From Caballeronia sp. M1242 (GTDB lineage Bacteria > Pseudomonadota > Gammaproteobacteria > Burkholderiales > Burkholderiaceae): a stretch of 64,000 nucleotides of DNA. Numbering within the stretch: position 1 is the stretch's first letter; each line of letters starts with the position of its first letter. Positions 19,656 through 31,747 of the stretch are shown one piece after another. The notes beneath the pieces are model-generated. The model was given only the letters and a program-made list of their open reading frames with translations, was not told the origin of the DNA and made no database searches. The translations under genes and the position numbers were made by a program. Location: positions 372,001-436,000 of the forward strand of contig NZ_CP071130.1 in the NCBI RefSeq assembly GCF_017220215.1. Direction: 5' to 3'.

Positions 19656-20054
19656 ATGAACAGCGAGATTCACGAAGGCGGTTGCGCGTGCGGCGCGTTT
19701 CGCTTTCGCGCGAAGGGCACGCCGCGGCGCGTCGCGCTGTGTCACTGCATGACCTGCCGGCGCGTGCACGGCTCGGCGTTCGGCGCCTACGCGATCTTTC
19801 CTCGCGATCGAGTGGAGATGAGCGGCGCGCTCAAAACGTGGGAAAGCTCGGAAGACGGGCGGCGGCATTTCTGTCCGGTCTGCGGATCGGTGGCGTATAT
19901 GGAGTTCGTGAGCCGCCCGGAGGTGGATCTGCCGCTCGGCGCATTCGATGAAACCGGCCTCTTCGAGCCGAGCTACGAGCTTTGGTGCGTGCACCGCGAG
20001 CCGTGGCTGCCGAGTGGCGCGCGCTCGGAATACGCCGAGGAACGGACGGCATGA
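19656..20054 (+). CDS. GFA family protein (CENP-V/formaldehyde-activating-like)
   Basis: This 132-residue zinc protein belongs to the GFA family, named after glutathione-dependent formaldehyde-activating enzyme. The zinc ligands are visible as GGCACGAFRF, CHCMTCRR and HFCPVCGS, in the family order. Most GFA proteins have no proven activity. The ATG at 19656 has GGAG seven bases upstream and gives the usual short N-terminus before the first CxC. It is followed 40 bp later by the DUF72 gene and may be co-transcribed. Confidence 0.9.
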   Translation: MNSEIHEGGCACGAFRFRAKGTPRRVALCHCMTCRRVHGSAFGAYAIFPRDRVEMSGALKTWESSEDGRRHFCPVCGSVAYMEFVSRPEVDLPLGAFDETGLFEPSYELWCVHREPWLPSGARSEYAEERTA

Positions 20055-20094
20055 TCGCGCGCCGCCGCTGCTTGCGTCCCGAAAGGTGAGCGCC

Positions 20095-20997
20095 ATGCCC
20101 GGACGCGAGGGACACATTCGCATCGGCATTTCGGGCTGGCGTTATGCCGGCTGGCGCGGCGTGTTCTACCCGAAGAAGCTCGCGCAGGCGCGCGAACTCG
20201 AATTCGCGTCGCGCGCGGTGCAGACGGTCGAGATCAACGGATCGCATTATTCGCTGCAAAGTCTCTCCAGCTGGCGCGCCTGGCATGAAGCCACGCCGGA
20301 CGGCTTCGTTTTCAGCGTGAAAGGACCGCGCTATCTGACCCACATGCTGCGCTTTCGCGATGAAACGGCCATTCCCGCCATCGCCAATTTCTTCGCTTCG
20401 GGCGTGCTCGCGCTCGACGAGAAACTCGGGCCTTTCCTGTGGCAGTTTCCGCCGAACTTCAGTTTCAAGCCCGAATCGTTCGAACGGTTTCTCGAACTCT
20501 TGCCGAAGGACACGCAAGCCGCCGCCGCGCTCGCCCAGCAGCACGACACGCGCGTGAAAGAGCCGTGGTTCGAGGCGCGGCGCAAGCGGGCGCTGCGCCA
20601 TGCCATCGAAATCCGCCATCCGAGCTTCTGCACCGATGCCTTCGTGCGGCTCCTGCGCAAGCATGGCGCGGCGCTCGTCGTATCGGACTCGGTGGCGGAC
20701 TGGCCGTATGCCGAAGACCTCACGTCCGACTTCATGTATCTGCGGCTGCACGGCACGGAAACGCTGTACGGCGGCGCCTATTCCGACGACGCGCTCGACG
20801 GCTGGACGCGGCGCATCCAGCGATGGGCGGCGGGCGGGCAGGTCGAGGACGCGCGGCTCATTTCGACGGCGGCGGCGCGCCGCCGCGCATCGCGCGACGT
20901 GTACTGCTACTTCGACAACGACCAGAAAGTGCAAGCGCCTTTCGATGCCCGTCGCTTGATGGAACGTCTCGGCGTGAAACCGGAAAGCGGCGGCTGA
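20095..20997 (+). CDS. DUF72 domain-containing protein
   Basis: This 300-residue protein is a member of the DUF72 family (YecE-like), with a TIM-barrel fold and unknown biochemical role. Family landmarks are IRIGISGWRYAGWRGVFYP at the start, VEINGSHYSLQS, FVFSVKGPRYLTH, LWQFPPNF, AIEIRHPSF, DFMYLRLHGTE and VYCYFDNDQKVQAPFDARRL. The start at 20095 is chosen because the family begins about ten residues before the IGISGW strand and AAAGGTGAG lies just upstream. Confidence 0.92.
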   Translation: MPGREGHIRIGISGWRYAGWRGVFYPKKLAQARELEFASRAVQTVEINGSHYSLQSLSSWRAWHEATPDGFVFSVKGPRYLTHMLRFRDETAIPAIANFFASGVLALDEKLGPFLWQFPPNFSFKPESFERFLELLPKDTQAAAALAQQHDTRVKEPWFEARRKRALRHAIEIRHPSFCTDAFVRLLRKHGAALVVSDSVADWPYAEDLTSDFMYLRLHGTETLYGGAYSDDALDGWTRRIQRWAAGGQVEDARLISTAAARRRASRDVYCYFDNDQKVQAPFDARRLMERLGVKPESGG

Positions 20998-21265
20998 AGC
21001 GAACTGTAAGCCGGCCGCATCGGGCTATTTCGTGTCCGAATCGAACGGGACACGGATTGTCCCGCCGGAACTGCATTCTTCACTCAACGGTCCGACCCAC
21101 TGCATCGATTGCATTCGCGTCAGGAAAATAAGACGATAAGCGGCGGGCTTCGCGCGGAAGAAAAAGCGTTGAAAAAGCGATGAGCGAAGCACGCGCGCCG
21201 GATGCGCGACAAGCGGCAGGATCGAGAACCTTTGACCTTCAAAGCCTACGAGGAGCATCGATACC

Positions 21266-22867
21266 ATGGCGAAGCAACCGGTTAGCGGCAGCGACAAAAC
21301 CCATCCCGAGGGCGCGAAGTGCGTCGGCGCGTGCGACCTCGGCGAGCAGATCGAAGTCATCGTCATGCTGCGGCGCAAGGACGAAGCGGGCTTTCGCCAG
21401 ATGATGGCGCGCATCGACTCGGGCGATGCCCCCGCGCAGTCCGTCACGCGAGACGAATTCGACAAGCGCTTCGGCGCATCCCAGGACGATGTCGAAAAAA
21501 TCAAGAAGTTTGCCGCAGAGAACGGCCTGACCGTCGTGCGCGCCGAGCGGAGCACGCGCAGCGTCGTGCTCAAGGGCAGCATCGAGCAGTTCCAGAAGGC
21601 GTTCGACGTGAAGCTCGAACGCTTCCAGCATCACAACATCGGCGAGTATCGCGGGCGCAGCGGCCCGGTGAACGTGCCGGACGATATCCACGACGCCGTC
21701 ACCGCCGTGCTCGGCCTCGACAGCCGGCCGCAGGCGCGCCCGCATTTCCGCTTCCGGCCGCCGTTCAAGCCGGCGCGCGGCGTCACGCCGGCATCGTTTT
21801 CGCCCGTCGATCTCGCCGCTCTTTACGACTTCCCCGAAGGCGACGGCGCGGGCCAGTGCATTGCGATCATCGAACTCGGCGGCGGCTATCGCGACACGGA
21901 TCTTTCGGCGTACTTCTCGAAGCTCGGCGTGAAGTCGCCGAAAGTCGTGTCGGTGAGCGTCGACAACGCGAAGAACGCGCCGACCGGCAATCCGAACGGG
22001 CCGGACGGCGAAGTGACGCTCGATATCGAGATCGCGGGAGCCATCGCGCCCGGCGCGCGCATCGCGGTGTACTTCGCGCCGAACAGCGACGCCGGTTTCG
22101 TCGATGCCGTCAACCGCGCGATCCACGACAACACGAACAAGCCGTCCGTCGTGTCGATCAGCTGGGGCGGGCCGGAGGCCAACTGGACTTCGCAATCCAT
22201 CAACGCGTTCAACGACGTGCTGCAAAGCGCCGCCGCGCTCGGCGTGACAGTGTGCGCGGCCGCGGGCGACAGCGGATCGTCGGACGGCGTGGGCGACGGC
22301 TCGAATCACGTCGATTTCCCGGCGTCCAGCCCGTATGTGCTCGGCTGCGGCGGCACGAGCCTCGCGGCGTCGGCGCAGTCCATCACGCATGAAGTGGTGT
22401 GGAACGACGGCGATCAGGGCGGCTCGGGCGGCGGCGGCGTCAGCGCGGTCTTCGCGCTACCCGTGTGGCAGAAGGGCCTGAGCGTCGCGCACACGGGCGG
22501 CAAGCACACGCCGCTCTCGAAGCGCGGCGTGCCCGACGTGGCCGGCGACGCATCGCCGCAAACCGGCTACGAAGTCGTGATCGACGGCGAGGAAACCGTC
22601 GTCGGCGGCACGAGCGCGGTGGCGCCGCTGTGGGCCGCGCTGATCGCGCGGATCAACGCCATCAATGGCGCGCCGTGCGGCTTCGTCAATCCGAAGCTGT
22701 ACAAGGCGAAGACCGCGTTTCGCGATATCACGCAGGGCAACAACGGCAGCTTTGCGGCATCGGCGGGATGGGATGCATGCACGGGTTTAGGCAGCCCCAA
22801 CGGCGGCAAGATCGCCGCCGCGCTCACGCCCGCGAGCGGTCAGACACGGCAGTCGAGCAAGAGTTGA
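21266..22867 (+). CDS. Sedolisin family serine-carboxyl peptidase (S53, kumamolisin-like)
   Basis: This 533-residue acid endopeptidase carries an N-terminal activation domain (about residues 25-165) followed by the S53 catalytic domain. The catalytic set is intact: E249 and D253 in GEVTLDIEIAG, the oxyanion D335 in AAAGDSGSSDG and the nucleophile S450 in VGGTSAVAPLWA. A calcium site is expected in FRDITQG and DACTGLGSPNG near the end. No signal peptide is seen, although sedolisins are normally secreted; kumamolisin-type enzymes also lack classical ones. AGGAG lies ten bases before the ATG. An S10 carboxypeptidase gene follows closely. Confidence 0.95.
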   Translation: MAKQPVSGSDKTHPEGAKCVGACDLGEQIEVIVMLRRKDEAGFRQMMARIDSGDAPAQSVTRDEFDKRFGASQDDVEKIKKFAAENGLTVVRAERSTRSVVLKGSIEQFQKAFDVKLERFQHHNIGEYRGRSGPVNVPDDIHDAVTAVLGLDSRPQARPHFRFRPPFKPARGVTPASFSPVDLAALYDFPEGDGAGQCIAIIELGGGYRDTDLSAYFSKLGVKSPKVVSVSVDNAKNAPTGNPNGPDGEVTLDIEIAGAIAPGARIAVYFAPNSDAGFVDAVNRAIHDNTNKPSVVSISWGGPEANWTSQSINAFNDVLQSAAALGVTVCAAAGDSGSSDGVGDGSNHVDFPASSPYVLGCGGTSLAASAQSITHEVVWNDGDQGGSGGGGVSAVFALPVWQKGLSVAHTGGKHTPLSKRGVPDVAGDASPQTGYEVVIDGEETVVGGTSAVAPLWAALIARINAINGAPCGFVNPKLYKAKTAFRDITQGNNGSFAASAGWDACTGLGSPNGGKIAAALTPASGQTRQSSKS

Positions 22868-22915
22868 GGGACAACAGTGAACAACAACCACGACGACGAT
22901 TCTGGAGCGACCACG

Positions 22916-24685
22916 ATGAACTCCGATCCACTGACAACGAAGACGATTCACGGCCACACCGGCACGGGCGTCGCGCCCGATGCGGGCGCCATCGCGCCCC
23001 GGCCGGACGAGGCGAGCGAGCCCGCGGCGCAGGAGCACGCGGCGAAGGCGCCCGCCAAAGCGCCCGCCAAGAGCGCGGGCAAGAAGGACCAGCCGTATTT
23101 CGATCCGGTCGCCTACGGCAACGGCCCCGACGATTCGGTGGAAGCTACCGAAGCCGACGAAAACGCCGCGATCACGCATCACACGGTGACCATCGGCGGC
23201 GAGAAGATCGCGTACACCGCGACCGTCGGCCATCTGGTGACGGTGGACCCGAGCAGCTCGAAGCCGGACGCGAAGATGTTCTACGTCGCGTTCACGAAGG
23301 ACGGTGCGAAGGAGGAAGAGCGCCCGCTTACGTTCTTCTATAACGGCGGGCCGGGCTCGTCGTCGGTGTTCGTGCTGCTCGGCTCGTTCGGGCCGCGCCG
23401 CATCAAGACGGCCATGCCGAGCTTCACGCCGCCCGCGCCGTACGAGATGGAGGACAACCCGGACAGCCTGCTCGACAAGAGCGACCTGATCTTCATCAAC
23501 CCGGTCGGCACCGGCTATTCCGCGGCGATCGCGCCGAACAAGAACCGCGACTTCTGGGGCGTCGATCAGGACGCCGATTCGATCAAGCAGTTCATCAAGC
23601 GTTATCTGACGAAGAACAACCGCTGGAATTCGCCGAAGTTTCTGTTCGGCGAATCGTACGGCACGGCGCGCAGTTGCGTGCTCGCGTACCGGCTGCACGA
23701 AGACGGCGTCGATCTGAACGGCATCACGCTGCAATCGTCGATTCTCGACTATCGGCAGGCGGGCAATCCGGTGGGCGCGTTGCCGACGGCCGCCGCCGAT
23801 GCGTGGTATCACAAGAAGCTCGGCGTCCATCCGACACCGACGAACCTGCTCAACTTCACGGAGGAAGTGGCCGAATTCGCGCGCACGGACTACCTGAACG
23901 CGCTGCGCAAGTTCCCGCAGACGGACGACGAAGTGGTCGAAAAGCTCGCGGAATACACGGGCATCGACAAGGTGACGCTACTCGCGTGGAGCCTCGACAT
24001 CGCCGCTTACGACAGCCGCGGCAACTCGCTGTTCCTGACGACGCTGCTCAAGTCGAAAGGCGAGTCGCTCGGCTCTTACGATGGCCGCGTGACGGCGGTA
24101 TCGACGGGCATCGCGGGCAAGATCGATCCGAACAGCGGCGGCAACGACCCGACCATGACGGCGGTGAGCGGCGTGTACACGGCGATGTGGAACAGTTACC
24201 TGAACGAGCAGTTGAAGTTCACGTCCACGTCTTCGTTCACGGACCTCAACGATCAGGCGTTCATCAACTGGGACTTCAAGCACACCGATCCGACCGGCGA
24301 GGAAAAGGGCGTCGACGCGAAGGGCAACGTCGTGCTGTACACGGCGGGTGATCTGGCTGCGGTGATGGCGCTGAACGTGGATCTGAAGGTGCTGGCAGCA
24401 AACGGCATGTACGACTTCGTGACGCCGTTCTACCAGACCATCCTCGATCTTCAGCAGATGCCGCTCATCGACAAGACCGTGCGGCAGAACCTCTCGGCGA
24501 CGTTCTATCCGTCCGGACACATGGTCTATCTGGACGGCGGATCACGCACGCAGCTGAAGGCGGATCTCGCGAAGATGTACAGCGAAGCGACGTCGAACCA
24601 TGCGGCGATGAGCCGGATCATCGCGCTGCAGAAGGTCACGGCGGACAAGGCGGGCAAGGCGCTTTCGCCGGAGAACGCGCAGTAA
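22916..24685 (+). CDS. S10 family serine carboxypeptidase-like protein
   Basis: This 589-residue alpha/beta hydrolase belongs to the serine carboxypeptidase family, which removes C-terminal residues at acidic pH. Motifs are FFYNGGPGSSSVFVLLGSFGP (oxyanion region), the nucleophile S247 in FGESYGTAR, D500 in NGMYDFVTPF and H535 in PSGHMVYLD. An Ala/Lys/Pro-rich stretch precedes the catalytic domain and no signal peptide is seen. The ATG at 22916 has GGAG eight bases upstream; an in-frame GTG at 22877 with GAGGG upstream is also possible and would add 13 residues. The gene follows the sedolisin by under 50 bp, so an endo/exopeptidase operon is likely. Confidence 0.92.
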   Translation: MNSDPLTTKTIHGHTGTGVAPDAGAIAPRPDEASEPAAQEHAAKAPAKAPAKSAGKKDQPYFDPVAYGNGPDDSVEATEADENAAITHHTVTIGGEKIAYTATVGHLVTVDPSSSKPDAKMFYVAFTKDGAKEEERPLTFFYNGGPGSSSVFVLLGSFGPRRIKTAMPSFTPPAPYEMEDNPDSLLDKSDLIFINPVGTGYSAAIAPNKNRDFWGVDQDADSIKQFIKRYLTKNNRWNSPKFLFGESYGTARSCVLAYRLHEDGVDLNGITLQSSILDYRQAGNPVGALPTAAADAWYHKKLGVHPTPTNLLNFTEEVAEFARTDYLNALRKFPQTDDEVVEKLAEYTGIDKVTLLAWSLDIAAYDSRGNSLFLTTLLKSKGESLGSYDGRVTAVSTGIAGKIDPNSGGNDPTMTAVSGVYTAMWNSYLNEQLKFTSTSSFTDLNDQAFINWDFKHTDPTGEEKGVDAKGNVVLYTAGDLAAVMALNVDLKVLAANGMYDFVTPFYQTILDLQQMPLIDKTVRQNLSATFYPSGHMVYLDGGSRTQLKADLAKMYSEATSNHAAMSRIIALQKVTADKAGKALSPENAQ

Positions 24686-24689
24686 GGCG

Positions 24690-24724
24690 GCGCGTGCCGT
24701 TTCGGGTATCGCAACGGCACGCGC
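24690..24724 (+). terminator. Stem-loop after the peptidase pair
   Basis: GCGCGTGCCGTT (24690-24701) is perfectly complementary to AACGGCACGCGC (24713-24724) with an 11-base loop. It lies just after the S10 gene stop. No T-run follows, so it may act as a 3' stabiliser or a factor-dependent stop. Confidence 0.55.
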
Positions 24725-24812
24725 GAACGTGTCAAAGGCTCGTTAGCTGTCCGATTGGCGCGTCCTGCGCTTTCTGACACACTAGCTGCACCGCTCGGAT
24801 TGGGGGTGCAGC

Positions 24813-27800
24813 GTGTCTCATTCTTCGAGGCCGCAACGCGCGTTGCGCTTTCTGCTCGCTGTCGCATGGCTCCTCGCGGCGCTGACGGCGGGCGCTTCCC
24901 ATGCCGCCGCGCGGCTCGTGATCGGCGCAGTGCCGGGCATGGTTCCTCCGCTCGATGTCGCCGCAGGCCCGGACGTGGACGCAGACGCCGCGCCGCGCGG
25001 CGTCTCCGTCGAGTTCGCGCAGGCGGTGGCCGAATCGCTCGGCATGACGCCGCAATGGCGGCGCTATCCGAATCGCGCCGCGCTCATCGAGGCGCTCTCG
25101 CGCGGCGAAATCGACATGGCCACCGGCGCGACCGGCGGCGACCTCGGCGGCCCGCTGCTGCTGTCGCGCCCTTATCTGCCGATCAAGACGGTGATCGTCG
25201 AGCCGCTCGCGAAGCACGCGGCGACGCATCGCATGGCGTACGTGGAGACGCAGACATCGCCTGCGCGGCTTGCGGCCGCGTATCCGTCGATGACGCCCGC
25301 AGCTTACCCCGACACCGTTTCGGCATTGCTCGCGGTTTCGCTCGGTCAGGCCGATGCGTTCGCCGGCGACGTGACCGCCGCTGCGTACTGCATCGGACAC
25401 CTCGATTTGCCCGGTCTCGCGGTCACGGGCTTCGCGCCCTTCGACGAGAGCGGCTACAGCTTCGCGTTCGCAGCCGGCCGACCGGACGCACAGGCGCTGG
25501 CGCAGCGGGTCGATGCCGCGCTGGCGCGCCTGCCGCCGCGCTTTATGATCGTGGCCCGCGCTCGTTGGGAAGTGGCGATGACCGCAGTTTCGGCAGAGGG
25601 CACGCTCGAACTTACGCCCGAGCAGAAGGCGTGGATCGCGGCGCATCCGGTCGTCTATTACTCGATGCTCTCGCACGCGCCGCCGCTCATGTTCCGCGAC
25701 GCGCGCGGTCAGCCCGCCGGTCTCGCGCCGGACCTGCTCGCGGCCGTCTCGCGCATGACAGGGCTGCGCTTCGAGGCACGCCAGCGTCGCGATATCGCGC
25801 GGATCGAACGCGACGTGAAGACGGGCGAATCCGCATTCCTGCCGATCAGCGTGCCGCGCGATCCCGACGACCCGGACTTCGTCGCGTCCGTGCCGTTCGG
25901 GGAAGGGCTCGTTGCTATCGTCACGCGGTCGGGCGCGCCGCAGCTCGCCGATGCCGCCGCGCTCGCCGGCAAGCGCGTCGCGCTGCCGTCCGGATACCCG
26001 GCGGGGCCGTCGTTGCGCGAACAAGCGCCGGCGGCGCGCATCGTCGATGCCAGTCCGGGCGACGGCCAGCTCGCCGCCGTCGCGAACGGCAAGGCCGACG
26101 CGACCGTCCTCGATATGAAGCTCGCCAATTACGCGATCGGCAATCCGTATCGCGGCAGGCTCGCGATCACCGGCGTGTTGTCGTCGAAACCGTCGCCGCA
26201 CGTGTTTCTCGTCGCGCGCAATCAGCCGGTGTTGCTCGACATTCTGAATCGCGCGATCGCGGCATTGCCGCCGCACGAACTCGAAGCCATTCGCGCGCGC
26301 TGGCAGCTTACTGAGCATCCCGAAACGTTGTGGGAGCAAAGGCGTCCGCGCGTGGAACTGGGCGCGGCGCTCGGCGGGGCGCTCGTGCTCGTGCTGGCCG
26401 CGTGGGCGGTGTCGCTGCGCGCGCAGATCGTGCGACGCATCGCCGCCGAGAACGCGATGCGGGCCGCCAAGGAGGAAGCCGAGACCGCGAACCGCGCGAA
26501 GTCCACCTTCCTCGCGACGATGAGCCACGAAATCCGCACGCCGATGAATGCGGTGCTCGGCCTCATCGAACTGGAACTGCGCGCGCCCGGCAACCGCGAC
26601 GCAACCGAGCGGTCGCTGCGCACGGCGCATCATGCGGCGCGCGATCTGCTCGGCATGATCGACGATCTGCTCGATGTCGCGAAGATCGAAGCCGAGCGGC
26701 TGGTGCTGGCGCCTGCGCCTGTCGAGCTATTTGCGTGGATCGCGAGCGTCGCGGCCATCTACGAGCCGGCGGCGCGGGCGAAGGGCATCGCGCTCGTCGT
26801 CGAGCGGCACGGCGAGCGCGACGGCCCGGCGTGGATCGTGGCCGACGCGCAGCGGCTGCGGCAGATCGTCGGCAACCTGCTGTCCAACGCGATCAAGTTC
26901 ACCGATGCCGGCGCGGTCACGCTGGCCTGCGATGTCGCGCCGCCGCGCGACGGCAAGCGCGCGGTCACGCTGGTCGTGTCCGATACGGGCGTCGGCATTG
27001 CGCCGGAGCGGCAGGCGTCGCTCTTCACGCCGTTCGTGCAGGCCCACGACGGCGGCGCGCGGCGCTTCGGCGGCACGGGCCTCGGACTCACCATCTGCAA
27101 GCGGCTCGTGTCGATGATGGGCGGCAGCATCGCGTTTGCCAGCACGCCCGGACAGGGAACCCGCTTTACGGTGCGCGCCGCGTTTCCCGAAGCGCAGGAG
27201 ACGGCGCAGCCACAGGCATCCGAAACGCGCGATTCGGCGCCCGAGGCCGCGTGCGCGCTCAGGGGCTTGCGCGTGCTCGTCGTGGACGATCATCCGGCAA
27301 ACCGCATGGTGCTCGACGGACAGATCCGGCTGCTCGGCGGTTCGACCGAGCTGGCGGTGGACGGCCGCAGCGCGTTCGCGCGCTGGCGCGACCATCCGGG
27401 CGCGTTCGACGTGATTCTCACCGACTGCTCGATGCCCGAGATGAGCGGCGAGGAACTGGCCGAAGCCATCCGCGCCGACGAGGCGACGCACGCGTTCGGC
27501 GCACGCGCGACGCCGATTGTCGGACTGACGGCGAATGCGCAGCCCGAAGCGGCCCGGCGGGCAGTGGCGGCGGGCATGACGATGTGCCTCGTGAAGCCGA
27601 TCGGGCTGGATGCGCTGCGCGATGCGCTGGCGGCTGCGACGGGGATGCATGCGGCGGCGGCCGCGGGAAGCGCGGCCGAGCAGGAAGCTGGATTTGGGCA
27701 GACAGGACATATCGCTGAAAGCGAGCGAGGTGGGGTCAGGCCGACCGCGCCCGTGATGTTCGAGCCCACACAAGCCACGACAACGCAGCCGACGCCCCCG

Positions 27801-28196
27801 CAACCGACCCGCGATGCCACAGGCAACACCGACACCACGCCGCCTTTCGATTCCGCCACGCTCGCCACCTTCGGCGATCAGGCCGCGACGCTGCTCGAAA
27901 CGCTCCGATCGGCCAACGCGCAGGATCTCGAAGAGGCTCATGCGGCGCGAAACGCGTGCGACCATGAACGCCTGCGCGAGATCGCGCATCGGATGAAGGG
28001 CGCGGCGGCGGTCATCGGCGCGGCGCGGTTCAAAGAGACGTGCGTCGCGCTTCAGCGGGACTGCGATCGCGCCATCGACGAAGATCGCAACGGCGAGGAC
28101 GATGCCTCCATCGATGCATCGTTCGCCGCCTTCGAGCATGCCGCCCTGACGCTCGATGCCGCCCTCGACGCCGCCGTCGCGCGGCCTTCGGTGTGA
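24813..28196 (+). CDS. Hybrid sensor histidine kinase of the BvgS/EvgS type
   Basis: This 1127-residue inner-membrane kinase has a signal sequence and then two periplasmic venus-flytrap domains of the SBP_bac_3 type (about residues 32-250 and 270-505). A membrane segment follows near 515-535. The transmitter has phospho-acceptor H572 in MSHEIRTPMNAV, N-box NLLSNAIKFT and G-box DTGVGIAPE / GGTGLGLTICKRL. A receiver domain has D871 in ILTDCSMPEMSG, and an Hpt domain has H1059 in IAHRMKGAA. A low-complexity Ala/Thr/Pro linker separates receiver and Hpt. The start is GTG with GGGGGTG upstream. No response regulator gene is nearby, so the output partner is elsewhere. Ligands are probably small organic molecules; none can be named. 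Confidence 0.93.
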   Translation: MSHSSRPQRALRFLLAVAWLLAALTAGASHAAARLVIGAVPGMVPPLDVAAGPDVDADAAPRGVSVEFAQAVAESLGMTPQWRRYPNRAALIEALSRGEIDMATGATGGDLGGPLLLSRPYLPIKTVIVEPLAKHAATHRMAYVETQTSPARLAAAYPSMTPAAYPDTVSALLAVSLGQADAFAGDVTAAAYCIGHLDLPGLAVTGFAPFDESGYSFAFAAGRPDAQALAQRVDAALARLPPRFMIVARARWEVAMTAVSAEGTLELTPEQKAWIAAHPVVYYSMLSHAPPLMFRDARGQPAGLAPDLLAAVSRMTGLRFEARQRRDIARIERDVKTGESAFLPISVPRDPDDPDFVASVPFGEGLVAIVTRSGAPQLADAAALAGKRVALPSGYPAGPSLREQAPAARIVDASPGDGQLAAVANGKADATVLDMKLANYAIGNPYRGRLAITGVLSSKPSPHVFLVARNQPVLLDILNRAIAALPPHELEAIRARWQLTEHPETLWEQRRPRVELGAALGGALVLVLAAWAVSLRAQIVRRIAAENAMRAAKEEAETANRAKSTFLATMSHEIRTPMNAVLGLIELELRAPGNRDATERSLRTAHHAARDLLGMIDDLLDVAKIEAERLVLAPAPVELFAWIASVAAIYEPAARAKGIALVVERHGERDGPAWIVADAQRLRQIVGNLLSNAIKFTDAGAVTLACDVAPPRDGKRAVTLVVSDTGVGIAPERQASLFTPFVQAHDGGARRFGGTGLGLTICKRLVSMMGGSIAFASTPGQGTRFTVRAAFPEAQETAQPQASETRDSAPEAACALRGLRVLVVDDHPANRMVLDGQIRLLGGSTELAVDGRSAFARWRDHPGAFDVILTDCSMPEMSGEELAEAIRADEATHAFGARATPIVGLTANAQPEAARRAVAAGMTMCLVKPIGLDALRDALAAATGMHAAAAAGSAAEQEAGFGQTGHIAESERGGVRPTAPVMFEPTQATTTQPTPPQPTRDATGNTDTTPPFDSATLATFGDQAATLLETLRSANAQDLEEAHAARNACDHERLREIAHRMKGAAAVIGAARFKETCVALQRDCDRAIDEDRNGEDDASIDASFAAFEHAALTLDAALDAAVARPSV

Positions 28197-28304
28197 CGAT
28201 GCGCTTGGCGCGCCGCTTGTCGGTCGTGTGTTCTAATTGAGCCTCCGTTCATCTCGAATTAGCGGCCATGCGTTGGCCGCACGATCAGCTTGCGCGAACG
28301 AGGC

Positions 28305-28832
28305 ATGAATCGAAGGGATACATATGCAATCCGTCGTCGTTCGCGCTGCATGGTGCGGGCGGCGGCCTTCGTGCTTCTCGCGCTCATCGCCACGTCCGCG
28401 ATGTTTCGCACCGATGCGGCGCGCGCGCAGCAGCCGAACTGGCTCGACCCGCACGTCACGCAGGCCACCATCGTCGATACCATCTGCGTGCCCGGTTATG
28501 TCGATCGCGTGTTGCCGTCCTTCGAGACGCAGATGCGCCAGAAGGAACGGCTCTTAAAGCAGCGAAGCATCGACGCTTCCTTCGCGTCGGAGTATGCGCT
28601 CGATCATCGGATGCCGGTTCTGCTCGGCGGCTCGCCGAATTCGCCCGCCAATCTGGATGTGCGCCGGTGGGAAGGGCGCGACGGCCAGCGTCGCAAGGAG
28701 CGGCTCGCGGTTTATCTCAAGCGTTGCGTGTGTACCGGCGATATGACGCTCAAGGCCGCGCAGTCGGCTATGGCGGGGGATTGGGCGAATCTCTTTCCGA
28801 ATCTTTCTAGTATGTCGTGTCAGGGGTTTTGA
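28305..28832 (+). CDS. Small secreted HNH-like protein
   Basis: The encoded protein (175 residues from this start) has a hydrophobic export segment (AAAFVLLALIATSAMF, cleavage near ARAQQ). The mature domain contains YALDHRMPVLLGGSPNSPANLDVR and a later KERLAVYLKRCVCTGDMTLKAAQSAM. This resembles secreted bacterial proteins with a degenerate HNH motif (DHxxPxxLGGxPxxPxNL) closed by a cysteine segment; nuclease activity is unproven. The start is uncertain. The best ribosome binding site (AAGGG at 28313-28317) points to an ATG at 28324 in a different frame, while ATGs at 28305 and 28350 are in frame but poorly preceded. A frameshift near 28350 is possible. Confidence 0.65.
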   Translation: MNRRDTYAIRRRSRCMVRAAAFVLLALIATSAMFRTDAARAQQPNWLDPHVTQATIVDTICVPGYVDRVLPSFETQMRQKERLLKQRSIDASFASEYALDHRMPVLLGGSPNSPANLDVRRWEGRDGQRRKERLAVYLKRCVCTGDMTLKAAQSAMAGDWANLFPNLSSMSCQGF

Positions 28833-28913
28833 CGAGGTAGGAGGAGCGCGGGGCGCGCAGAGCGCGGAACGCAGGACACAGGACACAGGACGCTGAAGGC
28901 CGGACGCGGAAAC

Positions 28914-29010
28914 GCCAAACGCCAAACGCCAAACGCCAAAGGCCAAACGCCAAAGGCCAAACCAAAGGCCAAAGGCCAAAGGCCAAAGGCCAAAGGCCAA
29001 AGGCGGAAGG
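28914..29010 (+). repeat. Heptamer block GCCAAAC / GCCAAAG
   Basis: The block begins with three GCCAAAC units (28914-28934). It then alternates GCCAAAG and GCCAAAC and settles into a run of GCCAAAG, with one irregular ACC insertion near 28960. Degenerate units (GACACAG, GACGCTG) lead into it from about 28868. Confidence 0.85.
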
Positions 29011-29027
29011 CCGAAGGGCCAAACGTC

Positions 29028-29114
29028 GACTGCCGACTTCCGCCTTCCGCCTTCCGACTGCCGACTGCCGACTGCCGACTGCGACTGCCGACTGCCGACT
29101 GCCGACTGCCGAAC
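29028..29114 (+). repeat. Heptamer block GACTGCC
   Basis: This block consists of repeated GACTGCC units, with a short CTTCCGC variant run near its left end and one unit shortened to six bases near 29083. It is the only block with regular T on the plus strand besides the GCTGAAC block. Confidence 0.85.
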
Positions 29115-29127
29115 GCGAAAGGAGCAC

Positions 29128-29540
29128 GCCAAACGCCAAACGCCAAACGCCAAACGCCAAACGCCAAACGCCAAACGCCAAACGCCAAACGCCAAACGCC
29201 AAACGCCAAACGCCAAACGCCAAACGCAAAACGCAAAACGCCAAACGCCAAACGCCAAACGCCAAACGCCAAACGCCAAACGCCAAACGCAAAACGCAAA
29301 ACGCAAAACGCCAAACGCCAAACGCCAAACGCCAAACGCCAAACGCCAAACGCTGAACGCTGAACGCCAAACGCCAAACGCTGAACGCTGAACGCTGAAC
29401 GCTGAACGCTGAACGCTGAACGCTGAACGCTGAACGCTGAACGCAAAACGCTGAACGCAAAACGCTGAACGCAAAACGCTGAACGCAAAACGCTGAACGC
29501 AAAACGCTGAACGCAAAGCGCTGAACGCAAAACGCTGAAC
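29128..29540 (+). repeat. 59 consecutive heptamers in unbroken register
   Basis: Counting from 29128, every 7 bases starts a new unit up to 29540. The order is 14 GCCAAAC, 2 GCAAAAC, 7 GCCAAAC, 3 GCAAAAC, 6 GCCAAAC, 2 GCTGAAC, 2 GCCAAAC and 8 GCTGAAC. Then come 15 units alternating GCTGAAC with GCAAAAC (one GCAAAGC). The alternating part forms a 14-bp higher-order repeat with seven copies at 29436-29533. No insertion or deletion breaks the register. Confidence 0.95.
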
Positions 29541-29709
29541 GCAAACGCAAACGCAAAACGCAAAACGCAAAACGCAAAACGCAAAACGCAAAAGGCAAAA
29601 GGCAAAAAAAGGCAAAAGGCAAAAGGCAAAAGGCAAAAGGCAAAAGGCAAAAGGCAAAAGGCAAAAGGCAAAAGGCAAAAGGCAAAAGGCAAAAGGCAAA
29701 AGGCAAAAG
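29541..29709 (+). repeat. Heptamer block GCAAAAC then GCAAAAG
   Basis: Two shortened GCAAAC units are followed by five GCAAAAC units, then GCAAAAG. One unit at 29602-29611 carries three extra A residues. From 29612 to 29709 there are 14 identical GCAAAAG copies. The plus strand contains no T here. Confidence 0.93.
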
Positions 29710-29819
29710 GCGGAGTGCCAAATGCAATGCAAAACGCCGAATGCAAGATCGCGCACGCGGGCACCACCCGCCACTCATTTAACGGCGAGCGCGACGCGCA
29801 TGGCCAGTTGCTAGCCGAC

Positions 29820-30106
29820 AACCACGAACCACAAACCACGAACCACGAACCACGAACCACGAACCACGAACCACGAACCAAGAACCAAGAACCAAGAACC
29901 AAGAACCAAGAACCAAGAACCAAGAACCAAGAACCAAGAACCAAGAACCAAGAACCAAGAACCAAGAACCAAGAACCAAGAACCAAGAACCAAGAACCAA
30001 GAACCAAGAACCAAGAACCAAGAACCAAGAACCAAGAACCAAGAACCAAGAACCAAGAACCAAGAACCAAGAACCAAGAACCAAGAACCAAGAACCAAGA
30101 ACCGCG
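29820..30106 (+). repeat. Heptamer block AACCACG then 32 copies of AACCAAG
   Basis: Eight units of AACCACG (one reads AACCACA) at 29820-29875 continue in the same register into 32 identical AACCAAG units at 29876-30099 and one AACCGCG. A short degenerate tail of GAACCGAG-like units follows to about 30160. The run of 32 identical copies suggests recent expansion or strong homogenisation. Confidence 0.95.
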
Positions 30107-30412
30107 AGCGGTCCGTGAGCCGCGCGCCGAGAACCGAGAACCGAGAACCGCGAGCCGGTAGCCGTGCACTGCGAGCCGTGCATTGCCGCACTTGCACTCC
30201 GCCATCGCGCATTTCTCCAATCGCGCAGCTACCGCCGGAACAGACCTTGCTCCTTCGATGGGACGAACTAAACATCACAGCGAAGCCGGTGCCATCCCAA
30301 ACACCGGCTTTTTTGTCGATGCGCGTTCGTGCGGTGGACGGTCCGGCAAACCGTCCGTGGTCGAGACTCAAGCGGATCATTTATGCGGCACGAAGGAAAC
30401 AACGAGACGCCA
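30107..30412. other. Region between the repeat tract and the L,D-transpeptidase gene
   Basis: After a degenerate repeat tail to about 30160, the sequence is unique. It contains one strong rho-independent terminator at 30283-30314, listed separately, and otherwise nothing I recognise. The terminator could end a transcript coming from the HNH-like gene through the repeats, or an unrecognised small RNA. Confidence 0.4.
30283..30314 (+). terminator. Rho-independent terminator
   Basis: AAGCCGGTG (30283-30291) pairs with CACCGGCTT (30302-30310) around a 10-base loop. A run of six T follows on the plus strand. It would stop rightward transcription before the L,D-transpeptidase gene. Confidence 0.88.
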
Positions 30413-31747
30413 ATGGGCGCACGAATCATCGGGGTCGCGGCACTGATCGCACTATTCGCCTGCATGCCGCAAGCTCGCGCGGAAAGCGCGTCGTCGGGGT
30501 CGGTTGTGCAAGGGCGGGTCGCGCCTGCGCCAGTACCGCCCGCGCCGCCTTTTCTGCGTGGCGCCAGTGCGCCACAGGCCGCGAGCGCGCCGCCTCGCGC
30601 GTTGCCCGCGATGCCGGTCCCAATGACACCGCAAGGAGCATCGGCGGCGTTAGCCCGATCGAGTGCATCGGCAGCAAGCGGGGCATCAGCCGAACGCGGA
30701 GCATCGGCAGCAAGCTGGGCATCGTCAGCAAACAAGGCATCAATGGCACGCAAAGCATCGGCTGAAAGCGGACCGTCAGCGATTAGCGGTGCATCGGCAG
30801 CAAGCGGGGCATCAGCGGCAAGCGAAGCATCCGCAGCAAGCGAAGCCTCCGCTGCCTCCGCAGCATCATCAGCCGAAGCCGCCTCCGCCGCCGAAGCCGC
30901 ATCCGAAGCCGCCGCGCCCGAAGTCCCGCTTCCGCCCGAGCCGCCCGAGCCGAACGTCGCGCAGCGCACCGGCCTTCCGGCGACGGGCGCGTACGCGATG
31001 CGTCAGACGTTCGCGAGAGAAGTCGATCGCCGCCTGAACGTGCCGCTCGCCGCACAGCAGGCCTATGCACGCCTCCTGCAAAACGCGCTCGACGAACACG
31101 GCCACGGCGATCTCGCGAAGGAGTTCGTCGTGCTCGTCGATCGCGGTGAGAACGTACAGGCGCTCTTCGTCTACTTTCGCGCGAAGCCGGGCGATGCCTG
31201 GTCGATGATCGGCGCATCGCCCGTATCGACCGGACGGCCCGGCACATACGACCACTTTCTGACGCCGCTCGGCGTGTTCCAGCACGTCCCCGGCAACATG
31301 GACTTCCGCGCCGAAGGCACGCAGAACGAATACAAAATTCGCGGCTACGGCGCGCGAGACATGCGCATCTACGACTTCGGCTGGGCCGATGGCGAACGCG
31401 GCTGGGGCAAAGGCGGCGTCTCGCCGATGCGCTTCCAGATGCACGCCACCGATCCGGAAAAGCTCGAGCCGCTACTTGGCATGCAGCATTCAAAAGGCTG
31501 CGTGCGCATTCCGTCGACGCTCAACACGTTTTTCGATCACCACGGCATCCTCGATGCGCAGTACGAAGCGCGCGCGGCCGAAGGGGAATCCATGTGGGTG
31601 TTGAGGTCCACGCGGCAGACGACGCCGTGGGCGGGGCATTACCTCGTCGTCGTCGATAGCGGCGCGAAGGCGCGGCCCGCGTGGGCGCCCGGACCGGGCA
31701 AGGCGGCGCGGGCACGTACGCCGGTGGGCGCGAATTCCGTCGACTGA
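30413..31747 (+). CDS. L,D-transpeptidase (YkuD) with Ser/Ala-rich spacer
   Basis: This is a periplasmic peptidoglycan-modifying enzyme of 444 residues. The signal peptide is MGARIIGVAALIALFACMPQ with cleavage after ARA. Residues about 75-175 form a low-complexity Ser/Ala region built on a loose 5-residue period (GASAAS, EASAAS). The YkuD domain follows (about 215-430), with VSTGRPGTYDHFLTPLGVF and the catalytic C363 in HSKGCVRIP. YkuD enzymes form 3-3 crosslinks or attach lipoproteins to the wall; which applies here is unknown. The start at 30413 gives the shortest clean signal peptide; an in-frame ATG at 30383 is possible. A terminator lies about 100 bp upstream, so the gene has its own promoter. 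Confidence 0.9.
   Translation: MGARIIGVAALIALFACMPQARAESASSGSVVQGRVAPAPVPPAPPFLRGASAPQAASAPPRALPAMPVPMTPQGASAALARSSASAASGASAERGASAASWASSANKASMARKASAESGPSAISGASAASGASAASEASAASEASAASAASSAEAASAAEAASEAAAPEVPLPPEPPEPNVAQRTGLPATGAYAMRQTFAREVDRRLNVPLAAQQAYARLLQNALDEHGHGDLAKEFVVLVDRGENVQALFVYFRAKPGDAWSMIGASPVSTGRPGTYDHFLTPLGVFQHVPGNMDFRAEGTQNEYKIRGYGARDMRIYDFGWADGERGWGKGGVSPMRFQMHATDPEKLEPLLGMQHSKGCVRIPSTLNTFFDHHGILDAQYEARAAEGESMWVLRSTRQTTPWAGHYLVVVDSGAKARPAWAPGPGKAARARTPVGANSVD

Follow-up and report, generated by a model that had tools for sequence, protein, structure and literature searches.

The intergenic region that follows position 28832 of the window (the 64,000-nt stretch of Caballeronia sp. 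M1242 DNA analyzed here) very probably contains a compound heptanucleotide satellite, i.e., a long simple sequence repeat of the VNTR type that has grown by whole-unit slippage or recombination together with occasional point mutation. The tract is unusually long, and a known kind of process explains it well. It is an extreme member of a repeat kind known from Burkholderia and offers a clear example of units turning over in place. The in-place replacement of units that separates two close relatives is where the finding is most useful, and it provides a clean natural experiment on the turnover of bacterial heptamer satellites, with one site, one putative ancestral unit, and a different amplified derivative per lineage.

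The tract was characterized by direct reading of the DNA and with Tandem Repeats Finder (TRF). Over positions 28868-30106 (1239 nt) the match at lag 7 is 0.846, versus 0.270 in window positions 20000-28800, and lags other than multiples of 7 give matches of 0.229-0.391 within the tract. The longest unbroken lag-7 run comprises 222 matches (29875-30103, 229 nt), the maximum in 1000 mononucleotide shuffles being 11. Exact period-7 runs, counted if at least 12 nt long, cover 1105 of the 1293 nt between 28872 and 30164. Among the gaps between these runs are a spacer (29712-29819) and shorter interruptions at 28892-28909, 29018-29026, 29113-29125, 29515-29523, 29543-29548, 30104-30126, and 30151-30152. 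A tandem 7-bp tract of about 1.24 kb between two ordinary genes, as stated in a preliminary description, is thus real but not continuous.

On the plus strand, the tract opens with a short CAGGACA array of 2.9 copies (28872-28891; TRF, lag 7). Arrays of AACGCCA and AAGGCCA with phase breaks occupy 28910-29023 (TRF period 7, 16.4 copies) and include a duplicated 40-bp segment at 28922-29001 (TRF period 40, 2.0 copies); across the tract, TRF detects tandem duplication at 7, 14, and 40 bp. A CGACTGC array with a short CTTCCGC block is found at 29027-29112 (TRF, lag 7). The stretch 29126-29542 holds 59 in-register units of the form ACGC(CA/AA/TG)A arranged in blocks, the right part of which alternates AA and TG with a 14-bp higher-order period. 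Only three major unit types are present in this stretch, one unit bearing a further change, and they form 22 runs (mean 38.4 and minimum 25 in 10,000 shuffles). The variable positions of this AACGCNN block are concentrated at two adjacent columns, a clustering that constraint could also yield, although few mutation events would suffice. AACGCAA and then AAAAGGC (GGCAAAA x14) blocks with frame-breaking units inside extend over 29543-29713, the frame-breaking units of the tract being found at approximately 29540-29556 and 29601-29611.

The non-repeat spacer (29712-29819, about 105 bp), recognized from the period-7 run map and a local match to the related locus L035, separates two array families. 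To its right, eight AACCACG units (one of them AACCACA) are followed by 32 AACCAAG units and one AACCGCG (29820-30106; TRF, lag 7), and the plus strand contains no T from 29820 to 30103. A CCGAGAA (= AACCGAG) remnant of 3.4 copies, representing the putative ancestral unit, and a degenerate 1.7-copy run complete the array at 30127-30164. Among the heptamer loci whose runs were listed, this tract is the longest.

Several specifics of the preliminary description hold on re-examination, namely the perfect register over 59 units, the 32 identical consecutive copies of AACCAAG, and a plus strand nearly free of T (48 of 1239 nt, 3.9%). Its count of at least eight unit types is exceeded: at least ten were found (CAGGACA, AACGCCA, AAGGCCA, CGACTGC, CTTCCGC, AACGCAA, AACGCTG, AAAAGGC, AACCACG, and AACCAAG), and a further type, CCGAGAA, lies just outside its right end (30106). 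The suggested change of one or two bases from block to block applies within the AACGCNN family and within the AACCNNG family, but neither between these two families nor to the CGACTGC block.

The tract is intergenic, lying between the stop codon at 28832 and a hairpin that precedes the ORF starting at 30383. The upstream gene (28290-28832, plus strand, from the ORF list), the stop codon of which served as the left anchor of the locus, encodes 180 aa with no Pfam family at 1e-3 (residues from 28308 on); a hybrid sensor kinase gene is located further upstream. The hairpin with its T-run (30283-30315, plus strand) is a probable intrinsic terminator between the tract and the downstream gene (z = -4.4 for the fold of 30270-30325). 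A similar hairpin and T-run can be recognized by eye in L035, L036, L038, and L039; the hairpin at 30283-30315 was not listed by a consensus terminator scan with loops of 3-8. The downstream gene (30383-31747, plus strand; ORF list, match in relatives), used as the right anchor, has no Pfam match at 1e-3. Its product carries an SKGCVRIP stretch, which we take to resemble the active-site motif of YkuD L,D-transpeptidases. A degenerate 18-bp tandem repeat within this gene (30665-30867) encodes an Ala/Ser-rich stretch, and the start of the gene fails to align between many relatives.

No sign of a gene or a structured RNA was found in the tract, and Rfam gave no match in 28200-30600. Minus-strand ORFs span the tract; however, the minus strand contains 49 A in 1241 nt, and its frames are open mainly because stop codons can hardly form with so few A. 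A protein-coding minisatellite was therefore rejected, given also the 7-bp period and the 17 of 19 orthologous gaps without a heptamer tract. Plasmid records gave four matches of 41-84 bp, all inside the upstream kinase gene, and none to the repeat, for which BLAST is a weak test since it filters simple repeats.

The orthologous site was traced with a 701-bp piece of the downstream gene as a DNA query, which matched 41 of the 58 genus genomes; the region was taken from 20 of these, and the gap between anchors was measurable in 19. The alignment of the upstream query (26501-28830, holding the upstream gene) reached or came close to the final bases of the query in 19 of the 20 fetched regions; the query had no match in L042, which ends at a contig end. 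A heptamer tract was found in only two of the 19 other orthologous gaps, L035 and L038, with best 56-bp lag-7 matches of 0.98 and 0.80, respectively, compared to 0.34-0.46 in the remaining 17. L038 carries a smaller compound array at the orthologous place, so that three different arrays (window, L035, and L038) occupy one site in this between-species comparison of one genome per species.

The most informative comparison is provided by L035 (genome G074), which is 94% identical to the window over 701 bp of the downstream gene and has an anchor-to-anchor gap of about 454 bp, versus about 1570 bp in the window. Local matches show 86.7% identity over 105 bp for the spacer (29726-29830) and 82.7% over 243 bp for the right flank, both segments being homologous between the two loci. 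Between these shared anchors, L035 contains AACCGAG x5.0 followed by AATCGAG x7.9, and the corresponding place in the window contains AACCACG, AACCAAG x32, and the AACCGAG remnant at the right end. L036 (genome G012) is also 94% identical in the downstream gene, but its gap comprises 2.7 kb of other sequence, and about 158 bp separate the anchors in L037 and L040. In place of the tract, L036 has three successive ORFs of 195, 264, and 146 aa (L036:6830-9555), of which the third matches DUF4952 and the first two match no Pfam family; a first impression that the 195-aa product is PAAR-like was not borne out.

The units of the right-hand array are nearly private to this locus. All 30 own-genome (G000) matches of (AACCAAG)3 are at the tract, and one of the other 57 genus genomes has a single match; (AACCGAG)3 has two matches in the 58 genus genomes, both in G074 at the orthologous locus. 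Because of this near-confinement, the AACCAAG and AACCGAG units most likely originated at the site itself rather than by copying from another part of the genome. The simplest reading of the sequences would be that AACCGAG is ancestral and that a derivative one or two bases away from it was amplified in place, a different one in each lineage, the change in the window presumably running from AACCGAG to AACCAAG. Short arrays may already have been present in the ancestor shared with L035 and L038, a presence deduced from few species because only these two gaps of 19 carry a heptamer tract.

In the proposed mechanism, short heptamer arrays would lengthen and shorten in whole units via slipped-strand mispairing and/or unequal recombination, and a point mutation in one unit would occasionally spread through many copies, giving homogeneous blocks one or two bases apart. 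Frame-breaking indels would be rare and most length changes would be multiples of 7; the register would survive because repeats pair in register, and the site would tolerate growth because a stop codon precedes it and a terminator follows. We infer slippage or recombination as the copying step, as well as neutrality of the tract. The scheme was simulated by letting units slip as wholes, bases change at random, and frame-breaking indels arise ten times more rarely (400 runs per ratio), using parameters and criteria of our own choice: 12-35 runs, 3-6 unit types, at least 3 major types, and unbroken register over 59 units. With 0.005 substitutions per bp per slip per unit, 15.5% of the 400 runs showed all of these together; with 0.01 the share was 17.7%, and at the other five ratios tried it was 0-6%. 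In this model, which takes the unit step as given and leaves the choice of 7 outside, no 7-bp measuring device is needed for the register. The same crude model would place slippage per unit at only about 100-200 times the frequency of substitution per base, slower than at a contingency locus. Of the two processes offered by the preliminary description, slippage with drift draws good support from the orthologous loci and suffices in simulation, whereas a process measuring 7 bp is superfluous for the simulated register, though it may bear on why period 7 is common.

Heptamer arrays are rare elsewhere in the sampled part of the same genome. In 864 kb (the window and 800 kb of sampled stretches), we found one other compound heptamer locus, L220, and a pair of short exact 7-mer runs with 2.9 and 3.4 copies. 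L220 (L220:7157-7396; contig C2 of G000, at about 557.2 kb) contains GAGCCCA x4.6 and AGAAGCC x9.7 with degenerate RAGCCNN between them. Exact arrays of at least 4 copies with periods of 4-16 outside the tract number two of period 7, both in L220, and one of period 4. No 7-mer array of at least 4 copies was found in 800 kb of G078 or 400 kb of G012, and period 7 is therefore not dominant in the sampled stretches of these genomes; G078 has one pentamer and two hexamer arrays of at least 4 copies, and G012 has nine hexamer arrays. In the G012 sample (L284-L303), exact hexamer arrays but no 7-bp ones thus reach this copy number, and close relatives may differ in their preferred period.

At a larger scale, (GCCAAAC)4 arrays were found in at least 119 stretches from many phyla in a collection of 84,980 species, 80 of them listed with names. 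The shorter (GCCAAAC)3 is present in one of 299 genomes drawn across the phylum, namely the own genome, where all 22 matches lie within the tract, and in two of 61 relatives, the own genome included. No enrichment, and hence no special status, is claimed for this unit, which despite arrays in many phyla occurs in a single one of the phylum-wide genomes. A four-unit AAYGCNN pattern gave 174 matches in 19 of the 58 genus genomes, versus 31 matches in 8 genomes for the reversed control; overlapping matches in one tract were counted separately, and G000 and G078 account for 56 and 55 of the 174, respectively. Units next to (AACGCCA)n were compared in the cross-phylum (GCCAAAC)4 stretches, a set that includes L133 (probably of the source genus) and other Burkholderiaceae. 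The variants affect all seven positions (repeated-variant counts 7, 8, 5, 9, 6, 12, and 12), as drift predicts, and constraint on an AAYGC core was rejected; single-substitution internal variants are uneven, numbering 18, 10, 5, 7, 3, 16, and 9 by position (chi-square p = 0.004). Since arrays are few in the sampled genomes, (GCCAAAC)4 stretches are spread across phyla, and variants fall on all seven positions, heptamer arrays with block structure appear to be a sparse, general feature.

Growth by slippage and drift has to be weighed against a dedicated process that imposes the 7-bp unit, such as the footprint of a polymerase or clamp, or a protein that templates or binds at a site of 7 nt, the tract being its product or a binding array. 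The period is exactly 7 across the unrelated families AACGCNN, CGACTGC, and AACCNNG, two of the three other own-genome arrays of at least 4 copies in the 864 kb have period 7, and Mrazek et al., as reported in PMC4679880, proposed 7 nt as a polymerase-interacting length. Nonetheless, this explanation is very unlikely, given the pentamer and hexamer arrays without heptamers in the G078 and G012 samples, a simulated register kept without any such process, and no 7-bp phasing of AAYGC in a 2.34-Mb sample. In that sample, which left out the window tract, L035, and the L038 tract and kept the L220 tract, 23 AAYGC pairs occur at spacing 7, versus 28-36 at 8, 10, 13, 16, and 19; the list of 7-bp-phased pentamers is headed by those of L220 units, e.g., CCAGA. 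It is likewise unlikely that the heptamer-phased intergenic sequences of the genus form one related vocabulary (AAYGCNN/GCRTTNN) that recurs at numerous loci with unrelated flanks and is in part preserved across species in short degenerate strings, with the kilobase tract as a runaway expansion whose 7-bp step was set by a cellular factor and not by chance.

A function at the RNA level, with the tract as an extended 3' region of the upstream transcript, poor in U and unstructured, that loads Rho or a cold-shock-type protein or buffers against RNases, would suit its position after a stop codon and before a hairpin with a T-run. As RNA, 29820-30106 has a folding energy of zero, and structure in the 59-unit part falls far below that of its shuffles (z = +8.6). 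However, the lack of structure follows from the lack of T and requires no function, and the orthologous gaps mostly hold no heptamer tract, with 2.7 kb of other sequence in L036 and about 158 bp in L037 and L040, which makes such a role very unlikely. The chance that the tract is an assembly artefact is smaller again: although it is longer than short reads can span, it is internal to a contig of 1.32 Mb in a genome of four contigs, comprises many distinct blocks and a non-repeat spacer, and has smaller counterparts at the same place in two other genomes. Phase variation, in which unit number would tune a neighboring promoter, has a nearly negligible probability. Tandem repeats of similar size class do vary in number in Burkholderia (PMC1853098), but a scan limited to the sigma-70-like type found 0 promoter patterns in 28700-30500 (0.2 expected), the hairpin with its T-run stands between the tract and the downstream gene, and no likely reading frame is hit by unit changes, the open minus frames stemming mainly from scarcity of A.

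The satellite is best compared with tandem arrays of Burkholderia, and the earlier statement that no counterpart has been described in Burkholderiales is wrong. According to U'Ren et al. (2007; PMC1853098), tandem arrays are preponderant in B. pseudomallei; the unit is 6-9 bp long in the majority of them, and most are intergenic. There, 36.3% of the arrays are duplicated elsewhere, most by motif only and without flanks; 104 of 108 and 112 of 114 duplicated arrays exceed 200 bp, and the largest reaches almost 6000 bp. In culture, 6- and 7-bp arrays mutate by one to six whole units, multiple-repeat mutations spanning two to six. The satellites of B. mallei and B. pseudomallei derive from 6-8-nt units (PMC6749651), and B. 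pseudomallei is an outlier for repeat-associated indels, bacteria on average showing no short tandem repeat enrichment (PMC12699852). The M1242 tract shares with the arrays of these two species the mostly intergenic location, the 6-9-bp unit, and the sometimes degenerate and long form, and would share the whole-unit mutation reported there (PMC1853098). Like them, it has a 5-11-nt unit repeated beyond chance and a unit number and type that differ between relatives, in our case at the species level. It differs in that over half of the 6- and 7-bp motifs of those species recur at further loci, a usual though not required trait, whereas (GCCAAAC)3 and (AACCAAG)3 occur at one locus only in the own genome, and in that the majority of their arrays have 4-10 units (PMC1853098). 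Such tracts should accordingly no longer be regarded as foreign to Burkholderiales; among the literature matches listed, neither this tract nor any similar one in Caballeronia was described.

In the survey of Mrazek et al. (2007), as summarized in PMC4679880, four of the ten genomes richest in 5-11-nt repeats are Burkholderia spp., and heptanucleotides are the most abundant class in most genomes. The tract has in common with those heptanucleotide long simple sequence repeats the period of 7, a length beyond chance, and a non-coding location (PMC4679880 and PMC4692102), and appears to differ from them as a kilobase compound of several unit families. G-rich heptamers, GGGNATC in Xanthomonas and GGGGA(C/T)T in Nostoc, are described by Rehm et al. 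(2015; PMC4692102). They likewise have period 7 and are over-represented in non-coding DNA, but show G-runs of three or four, a genome-wide spread, and a preference for four units, whereas GGG or CCC occurs three times in the tract, outside the main units. The only such runs within 28872-30164 are two of GGG (29016, 29759) and one of CCC (29767), and a G-quadruplex repeat of the GGGNATC type was rejected for want of a G-tract of at least 3 per unit. The STRR heptanucleotides of filamentous cyanobacteria share tandem arrangement and period 7 with the tract and differ in phylum and probably also in their units. The STRR assignment was rejected: the host is not a cyanobacterium, and (GCCAAAC) arrays occur in Burkholderia, Paraburkholderia, and a genus-mate.

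Some further sequences of the genus were recorded along the way. The 18-bp string GCGTTTTGCATTACGCAT, allowing 0-1 mismatch, is present in 19 of the 58 genus genomes, with no match in the reversed control, and is absent from the own genome. Its loci (L308-L337, at about position 1501 in most, and also L061-L064, L074, L075, and L081) include 30 that form seven clusters without shared flanks, the largest of which often has two copies about 40 bp apart. In several clusters the string lies within degenerate 7-bp-phased GCRTTNN sequence, at loci that share 84-94% identity across species; no such setting is evident in L316 and L322, each of which forms a cluster of one locus. Finally, L009:1261-1860 of G012 contains GTTTGGC x11 and GCATTCG x7 arrays in what appears by eye to be a larger repeat of about 270 bp, which also holds a non-heptamer segment around GGAGACGGCCGGCATTAC.
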